NCBI GenBank assembly: GCA_022072085.1
Contig: JAJVII010000041.1
Location: forward strand, 62,001-126,000
Direction of reading: 5' to 3'
DNA length: 64,000 bases
DNA from: Phycisphaerae bacterium
GTDB lineage: Bacteria; Planctomycetota; Phycisphaerae; JAJVII01
This document shows, piece by piece, positions 53,277 through 55,004 of this stretch (the first letter of the stretch is position 1; each line of letters opens with the position of its first letter). The position numbers were made by a program, and so were the translations under genes. The notes under the pieces are model-generated. The model was not told the origin of the DNA, did no database searches, and worked only from the letters and a program-made list of their open reading frames with translations.

Positions 53277-53861
53277 TTACAGCTTGATCTTCGTGCCCAG
53301 GAGCTTGAGGAACTCGGCCAGCCAGGCGGGGTGGCCGGGCCAGGCGACCGCGGTCACCAGGTTGCCGTCGACGACGGCCTTGTCGAAGGCGACCTGGCGG
53401 AACTTGCCGCCGACGGCGACCACGTCCGGATGGATCGAGGGGTAGGCGGTCAGCGTGCGGTCCTTGACGACGTCCGCGGCGACGAGGATCTGGGCGGCGT
53501 GGCAGATGGCCGCGACGGGCTTGCCCGCCTTGAAGAAGTGCCTCACGATCGCGATCACGTGCTCGTTGAGCCGGATGTATTCCGGTCCCCGGCCGCCCGG
53601 GAGGACCAGTGCGTCGTAGTCGGCCGGGTCGATGTCGTGGAAGTCCGCGTTGAGTGCGAAGCGGTGGCCGGGCAGTTCGTGATAGGTCTGGGCCCCGTCG
53701 GCGAAGTCATGCACAGCCGTCGGGATCTTGTCGCCGGCGTGACGGTTGGGGCAGGCGGCGTGAACGACGTGGCCGACGGCCTGGAGCGCCTGGAACGGCA
53801 CCATCACCTCGTAGTCCTCGACGTACTCGCCGACGAGCATCAGAATCTTCCTGGCGGCCAT
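53277..53861 (-). CDS. DJ-1/PfpI-family protein
   Basis: A protein of 194 residues starting [19 protein letters not shown], with AAAGGA 6 nt upstream. The nucleophile elbow is [11 protein letters not shown] (Cys) with E in [10 protein letters not shown] and the His next to Cys. This matches the DJ-1/PfpI superfamily, which includes intracellular proteases, glyoxalase III-type and deglycase-like proteins. Probably single-domain and cytoplasmic. Confidence 0.9.
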
Positions 53862-54010: not shown

Positions 54011-54198
54011 CCGCAGATTACGCAGATTACGTAGATTCAAGATCAAGGAAAGACAAGAGAACCGCGAATGGACGCGAATGAACGCGAGTAGAGAAGTAGG
54101 GAGACTTGGGCCTTCCCTCCCTCATTGGCGGCCATTCGCGTGAATTCGCGGTTCTCCCGCTTCTTGGTACACGTCTGCGTAACTGCGTAATCTGCGAG
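54011..54198. repeat. Nested palindromic element, two word families
   Basis: The outer arms use CGCAGATTACGCAGATTACG (54012-54031) mirrored by CTGCGTAACTGCGTAATC (54175-54192). The inner arms use GAGAACCGCGAATGGACG (54057-54074) mirrored by ATTCGCGTGAATTCGCGG (54134-54151). The inner pair lies wholly within the outer pair. It fills most of the 380-bp gap 53862-54242, which holds no gene I can support. Confidence 0.75.
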
Positions 54199-54242: not shown

Positions 54243-55004
54243 TCAGCGGTCGGCGGACTGGCGGCTGATGAGGGCGGCGATGTAGCCGGCGGCGAACCCG
54301 TTGTCGATGTTCACGACGCTCACGCCCGCGGCGCAACTGTTGAGCATCGTCAGCAGCGGGGCGATCCCCCCCAGGTGGGCGCCGTAGCCGACGCTGGTCG
54401 GCACGCCGACGACCGGGCTGCTCACCAGTCCGCCCACCACCGACGCCAGCGCCCCCTCCATGCCCGCGACGACCACTAACACCTTGGCGCGGTGGATGTC
54501 CTCCAGGCGGCCGAGCAGTCGGTGCAGGCCGGCGACGCCAACGTCGTAGATTGTCGTCACCGGAGCGCCCATGATCTCGGCTGTCACGCGGGCCTCCTCG
54601 GCGACGGGCAGGTCGCTGGTCCCGGCGCTGATGATGCCGACCAGGCCCGCGTTGCCGACTTGCGGCTCGGTCTGTCGCAGCGTGATGGCCCGGGCGGTCG
54701 CGTGATGCCGGGCTGAGGGGAACTTCCTCAGCACGGCCGCCACCTGCTCGTCGCCGGCGCGGGTGGCCAGCACGTCGCCGCCGTGCTCAGCCAGGCGCGT
54801 GAAGATCGTGACGACCTGCTCGACGGTCTTGCCGGGGCAGTAGATGACCTCCGGGAAACCGCAGCGGAGGCGGCGGTGATGGTCGATGGTCGCGAATTCG
54901 AGGCTCTCGAAAGGCAACCGCCGCAGCCGCTCGATGGCGTCGGCCAGGTCGATCTGGCCGGCTTTGAACTGATTGAGCAGGTCCGCGAGCTGGTTGGGTT
55001 CCAT
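54243..55004 (-). CDS. larB: Nickel pincer cofactor carboxylase LarB
   Basis: A protein of 253 residues. The pattern EVIYCPGKTVEQV, then ISAGTSDLPVAEEA, DVGVAGLHRLL, VAGMEGALASVVGGL and VPTSVGYGAHLGGIAPLLTMLNSC, VNIDNGFAAGYIA, is that of LarB, which carboxylates nicotinate adenine dinucleotide in NPN cofactor synthesis for lactate racemase. larC, larE or larA are not seen in the window. It stands alone with palindromic sequence on its downstream side. Confidence 0.9.
   Translation of the reverse strand: MEPNQLADLLNQFKAGQIDLADAIERLRRLPFESLEFATIDHHRRLRCGFPEVIYCPGKTVEQVVTIFTRLAEHGGDVLATRAGDEQVAAVLRKFPSARHHATARAITLRQTEPQVGNAGLVGIISAGTSDLPVAEEARVTAEIMGAPVTTIYDVGVAGLHRLLGRLEDIHRAKVLVVVAGMEGALASVVGGLVSSPVVGVPTSVGYGAHLGGIAPLLTMLNSCAAGVSVVNIDNGFAAGYIAALISRQSADR

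Follow-up and report, generated by a model that had tools for sequence, protein, structure and literature searches.

Several described systems come close to the feature analysed here. The intervening sequences (IVSs) of 23S rRNA, for example in Coxiella burnetii, are selfish stem-loops with inverted ends and an S23 (PF05635) ORF in the loop; they replace a former helix loop and are sporadic and horizontally acquired (PMC4990558). In Geobacter, three tandem TCTCCGTS[Y] words are paired on opposite strands, and the same intergenic regions also hold clusters of multicopy sequences. The two Geobacter papers present such words as 'global regulator binding sites', possibly for IHF/HU, with an undefined function (PMC2700814, PMC2996986).

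The locus studied here lies in a 64,000-nucleotide stretch of a Phycisphaerae genome (the source genome), the whole of which we call the window. Positions 54012-54196 form a hairpin of two nested shells, B around C, with about three words per arm (shell B, CGCAGATTA, period 9; shell C, CGCGAATGGA, period 10). In the outer palindrome, CGCAGATTACGCAGATTACGTAGATT (54012-54037) pairs with 54173-54196, and in the inner one, CGCGAATGGACGCGAATGAACGCGAGTAG (54063-54091) pairs with 54122-54150. A preliminary description had read the locus as one palindrome within another, with spacing kept while bases drift. Both points are borne out by the coordinates and the word parse, as the periods are fixed at 9 and 10 and the 1-3 nt after each 7-mer are the most variable. 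The features are, in order:

53277-53861, minus strand: downstream gene (ORF), presumably DJ-1/PfpI-like as named by inspection; its start lies 150 nt from the element
54012-54037, plus strand: outer shell B, left array of three CGCAGATTA words, period 9; the same words occur in at least 120 contigs
54038-54062, plus strand: purine-rich left linker between B and C, seen in the sequence and common to other copies
54063-54091, plus strand: inner shell C, left array of three CGCGAATGRA words, period 10, an 'S' type arm
54092-54121, no strand assigned: core (loop side) of the nest; clear heptamers are absent here, and several other copies have period-7 cores
54122-54150, minus strand: inner shell C, right array, reverse complement CGCGAATTCACGCGAATGGCCGCCAATGA, a 'T' type arm
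54151-54172, minus strand: right linker between C and B, seen in the sequence
54173-54196, minus strand: outer shell B, right array GTCTGCGTAACTGCGTAATCTGCG
54243-55004, minus strand: upstream gene (ORF with homologues in relatives), which we take by inspection to be LarB/AIR-carboxylase-like; 46 nt separate its stop codon from the element

The element is intergenic, and the protein genes on either side are codirectional. Its RNA folds with -105 kcal/mol on the plus strand and -99 on the minus strand (z about -10), and none of 200 shuffles folded as well. Shell A, outermost in many other copies, is absent here, and the loop of this copy holds no ORF, S23 or other; the copy itself carries no gene. 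An Rfam search of the window gave no match. We rejected an rRNA IVS as the identity of the element, considering that it lies between protein genes, has no Rfam match and has no S23 ORF in its loop. In a homologue search, the same-family genome G001 gave no larB match, and the remaining relatives are distant. The feature is probably composite: small mobile elements, ended by inverted tandem-word arrays, are nested in one another and carry no gene here. The same kind of element, apparently mobile, occurs in at least 12 bacterial phyla.

In the source genome, which was examined as stretches around matches, blastn gave 81 matches, which fall in about 40 places; searching again with related words added A-only, D-only and mixed elements. 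The two word families of the preliminary description thus both recur beyond this locus, with about 60 relatives of the window element, 52 of them two-armed. Further shells consist of A (CACAGAGG, period 8), D (CACGAAGGAC, period 10) and E (CGCCAAG) words. Shells A, B, C and D were each found singly, and the combinations, from outside to inside, were A>B>C, B>C, B>D, B>E, A>D and D>E. The order was constant: B lay outside C (44:0), A outside B (21:0) and A outside C (21:0). Period-7 arrays formed the cores of five copies (L010, L013, L014, L015 and L016), a further layer. At a contig break (end of L234 and start of L245, contigs C24 and C21), two A elements share the terminal repeat GATTATGAAAAATCCTGAG, and ends resembling it were also seen at L031 and L247.

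The 52 two-armed elements sit just after stop codons (median distance 22 nt), with 15 convergent and 2 divergent gene contexts (p = 0.002), the genes being codon-model calls made for this analysis, not annotation. Such placement, together with the very stable folds of both strands, is what would be expected of functional transcription terminators or mRNA 3'-end stabilisers that are selected on RNA structure and in which nesting reflects stem extension. However, sense and antisense folding energies are equal, and in codirectional contexts G.T mismatches are about as common as A.C mismatches (109 vs 101, p = 0.63, with modest power), so that no RNA-level signature is seen. A strong T tract is absent, and the sole terminator-like match at the window element is weak. 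Selection on RNA structure would also leave unexplained the recurrence of the same words in many phyla and the genes found inside hairpins. We consider this explanation unlikely.

The words of the different shells share one grammar, a CRCNRAK 7-mer plus 1-3 variable bases. When palindromic tandem 7-mers were searched for free of any grammar, 70 of the 75 arrays in source-genome loci fitted CRCNRAK. Given that these loci had been chosen for holding such words, the cross-phylum loci weigh more; there, with the query word set aside, about 22 of about 42 arrays fitted, against about 1.4% by chance. At period 8, the pattern matched in 23 of 59 Planctomycetota genomes, and matches were far fewer with a reversed control; this control is only partly independent, given that a long array may match it as well. 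As an extreme expansion, a planctomycetotal genome of 12.3 Mb (G076) held 438 period-8 CRCNRAK matches, in which CACGGAGG and CGCAAAGG words predominate. The exact B arm, CGCAGATTNCGCAGATTNCGCAGATT, occurred in at least 120 contig stretches with titles naming at least 12 phyla, and in 14 viral-contig stretches, sometimes between genes. In three loci on IMG/VR contigs (L265-L267), B palindromes lie between viral genes, a possible route between phyla. A search of a phage collection with the B element gave no match, and among plasmids the element was found in Gemmatirosa only.

The TCTCCGTS[Y] words of Geobacter are the reverse complement of our A-type words. The arrays could instead be chromosome-architecture or regulator binding sites, at which a conserved protein would recognise three tandem words in pairs on opposite strands, a role proposed for Geobacter metallireducens. 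This would be consistent with a grammar that phyla share even though the bases between words differ, and with the paired three-word sites on opposite strands in the Geobacter paper (PMC2700814). This proposal does not sit well with arrays that enclose genes, with copies made unit by unit in both orientations, or with presence/absence polymorphism and target duplication in sister elements, and we consider it quite improbable. It is possible that the words are bound by the element's own protein, which would fit the mobile-element reading. Unlike the present analysis, the Geobacter accounts, in their available portions, draw no link to GxxExxY or S23 and contain neither a nesting rule nor a cross-phylum grammar.

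The source genome encodes six GxxExxY (PF13366) and eight S23/IVP (PF05635) genes. Inverted CRCNRAK arrays flank 6/6 of the GxxExxY genes (five by a strict detector, L372 by eye), consisting of D words at L368, A words at L369, CACAGAT at L370 and CACGGAT at both L371 and L372; those at L373 are the C words of the window itself. Inverted arrays of other words, mostly of period 7, flank 8/8 of the S23 genes (the strict detector found six, and L364 and L365 were recognised by eye). B words accompany GxxExxY at L049, at L150 and, in the same-family genome G001, at L325, and in another genome (G013) inverted word arrays enclose one GxxExxY gene and one S23 gene. Among named isolates, GxxExxY lies between arrays in Bacteroides (L384), Sphingomonas (L387) and Bernardetia (by eye), and S23 in Nostoc, Pseudanabaena, Trichormus, Geminocystis (by eye) and Picosynechococcus. 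Clear arrays were absent from the plasmid GxxExxY genes of Prevotella, Treponema, Fusobacteria and Persicobacter, and the S23 gene of G013 (L348) has CRCNRAK words; gene and word class are thus not strictly paired. On the Fusobacteria ZRK30 plasmid (L390), the GxxExxY gene is flanked by a direct, not inverted, repeat, CAGATTTAATCCGTGTACCTAT. The inverted-repeat score of the flanks was 21-30 for the six source-genome GxxExxY genes, compared to a mean of 11.3 and a maximum of 19 for 48 control genes of the window. Among genes sampled by routes other than the words, 10 of 18 GxxExxY and 12 of 20 S23 genes scored above the control maximum.

The family assignments are TIGR04256 and PF13366 for GxxExxY, and TIGR02436 and PF05635 for S23. 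GxxExxY is PD-(D/E)XK-like, with conserved D and (E/D)xK residues. A PDB sequence search with it gave no match. By predicted structure (pLDDT 91.7), its nearest neighbour is SSO0001, which we take to be a Cas4, followed by alkaline/RecE exonucleases and MGME1, all of them PD-(D/E)XK nucleases. To our knowledge, S23 has no known enzymatic activity. The S23 elements have the same layout as the 23S rRNA IVSs, whereas the word elements are intergenic, have tandem-word arms and are mostly gene-less and nested, and their CRCNRAK class carries GxxExxY.

Comparison of filled and empty sites revealed that S23 elements, and one composite containing B words, have inserted. In plasmid C of Trichormus variabilis, a filled S23 site consists of AAAAAGTAAT and GTAATTAACAAAT on either side of an insert that runs from AAATCAGAATTC through the S23 gene to GTTCTTCTTT, whereas plasmids of Nostoc linckia and Aulosira laxa (98% identical) read AAAAAGTAATTAACAAAT; this is a clean empty site, and the target duplication is the 5-bp GTAAT. 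What remains at this site in Nostoc C052 is the left array with a portion of the gene. Filled and empty S23 sites were also observed at cas10/cmr3 (PCC 7003 vs PCC 7002) and at nrdB/nrdA (Nostoc edaphicum vs Calothrix). For a unit containing B words, Chloroploca mongolica and Khr17 provided two clean empty sites with 10-11-bp duplications, GGTTGGAATGC and GCCTTAATCG. Neither of the two outcomes that would have counted against the preliminary description, restriction to this locus and a lack of empty sites, was observed: about 60 copies were found, and the Chloroploca composite and the S23 word elements have empty sites, although none was obtained for the window locus. Among 54 cross-phylum B elements, we found no target duplication at the B boundary, and no CRCNRAK element showed an empty site or a target duplication at ends of its own. 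Insertion of a GxxExxY element is evidenced only by fabD and fabG, which adjoin each other in other alphaproteobacteria; no clean junction was seen.

The Chloroploca unit has IS1182-like ends, AGGGCTGATGCAAAGTC, which lie outside the B words, and the genome encodes an IS1182-family transposase (NF033551, 240 bits) beside the same end sequence. This suggests that the transposase, not GxxExxY, may have moved the unit. Since a same-ended IS1182-like unit without B also exists (L321), B looks like a passenger. In one assembly (G032), the distance between a AGGGCTGATGCAAAGTC end and the end of its contig is in many cases 35-54 nt, which looks like the collapse of a long repeated IS1182-like element during assembly. 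An abundant Chloroploca palindrome beginning with AGGGCTACGCTGAAAATGGGGGAACC and ending in AGGGCT/AGCCCT lies beside the B composite at L276 and in many places in G034.

The Chloroploca ends, duplications, empty sites and neighbouring transposase are the case for regarding the word elements as ordinary MITEs: a DDE insertion sequence (e.g., IS1182-like) would move them by the arrays, which would serve as terminal inverted repeats, and neither GxxExxY nor S23 would take part. The word elements do resemble MITEs in being non-autonomous, in their inverted ends and in the empty sites with target duplications of their sister classes. They differ in that no transposase with matching word-array ends was found among about 140 B arrays: no transposase-sized gene is bounded by CGCAGAT/B arrays there, and where arrays do flank a gene, it is GxxExxY or S23. 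Together with the position of the IS1182-like ends outside B and the B-less unit, this makes ordinary MITEs a very improbable explanation.

With regard to nesting, the preliminary description had suggested that one element inserted into the centre of another. Nesting by insertion is supported by the separate shells and by three further observations. First, at L029 a B>C composite splits the loop of an A-only element, TTCTTCATGCTTTCGG and onwards, that is common to L230, L238 and others. Second, in four Chloroflexales genomes the B shell is enclosed by a different outer palindrome. Third, the locus-specific outer flanks of 42 non-Chloroflexi cross-phylum B elements are palindromic (5.71 vs 4.42; 0/500 shuffles). 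These findings support insertion into existing palindromes, although older terminators hosting B, or decayed shells, could give the same palindromic flanks. The window copy itself would have arisen by insertions of B plus C.

The preliminary description had alternatively suggested that word duplication builds both arms in place. This is unsupported in the source genome, where the C arms fall into two types, S and T, and copies tend to hold one of each in either orientation. Within a copy, C arm identity is 0.799 against 0.820 for shuffled pairs (1992 of 2000 shuffles higher), and the A and B arms show no greater likeness within a copy than in shuffled pairs. In addition, the left B array is missing alike in L023, L025 and L028, despite different gene contexts. 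The distinct S and T arms kept in both orientations suggest that elements are copied as units, and the low within-copy identity together with the shared missing array suggests that arms are inherited, not matched in place. One observation points the other way: at an orthologous Chloroploca site (L291/L318), both arms changed together from three words to two and from GATTA/TAATC to GATGA/TCATC. This is what replication slippage and template switching within the hairpin, expanding and mirroring words in place, would produce. As such local growth does not account for the arm comparisons in the source genome and would leave the same words across phyla unexplained, we consider it extremely unlikely.

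We tentatively propose, as a serious possibility rather than the probable case, that these units represent a new class of mobile element, in which CRCNRAK-ended units would be moved by a word-recognising GxxExxY nuclease of Cas4/RecB fold that opens palindrome or hairpin centres; the 23S rRNA IVSs and cyanobacterial heptamer repeats would be S23-using relatives, and nested palindromes such as that of the window would record successive insertions. In the reading that we consider probable, each shell (A, B, C, D and so on) is one element with arms of about three CRCNRAK 7-mers, each plus 1-3 variable bases. The fuller form carries the GxxExxY gene, with its PD-(D/E)XK nuclease fold, between the arms, and a sister class has heptamer arms around an S23/IVP four-helix-bundle gene. 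The gene-less forms multiply and insert mostly intergenically just past stop codons, presumably mobilised by GxxExxY or by relatives acting in trans. Hairpin loops may be the preferred targets, and insertions often hit the middle of an existing palindrome and so generate nested shells.

If this reading is true, a common anatomy would connect several separate puzzles: the origin of the 23S rRNA IVSs, the roles of GxxExxY and S23, and the intergenic tandem words of Geobacter and cyanobacteria. If confirmed, it would also describe a very widespread and very small type of mobile DNA that inserts between operon genes (fabD/fabG, nrdB/nrdA, cas10/cmr3), where it could fragment or process transcripts. 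In the main texts of the open-access literature, we found no text that joins the Geobacter sites with S23 IVSs or GxxExxY with such arrays, and a full-text search for the word strings returned nothing.

REP/BIME sequences, like the word elements, are intergenic palindromes near gene ends that occur in many copies, whereas the word elements have tandem-word arms, are much longer and flank no Y1 gene. The preliminary description had pointed to Y1/REP transposases. The source genome has three Y1 genes, none of which is flanked by word arrays, and REP/REPIN with RAYT was rejected as the identity of the window element on the grounds that no Y1 gene is flanked by the repeat. One of the Y1 genes (L042, C54:28727-29068) is flanked by perfect palindromes, AAAGTGGACCTGGTCCACTTT, that are unrelated to the word elements and likely belong to a separate REP/RAYT-like system.
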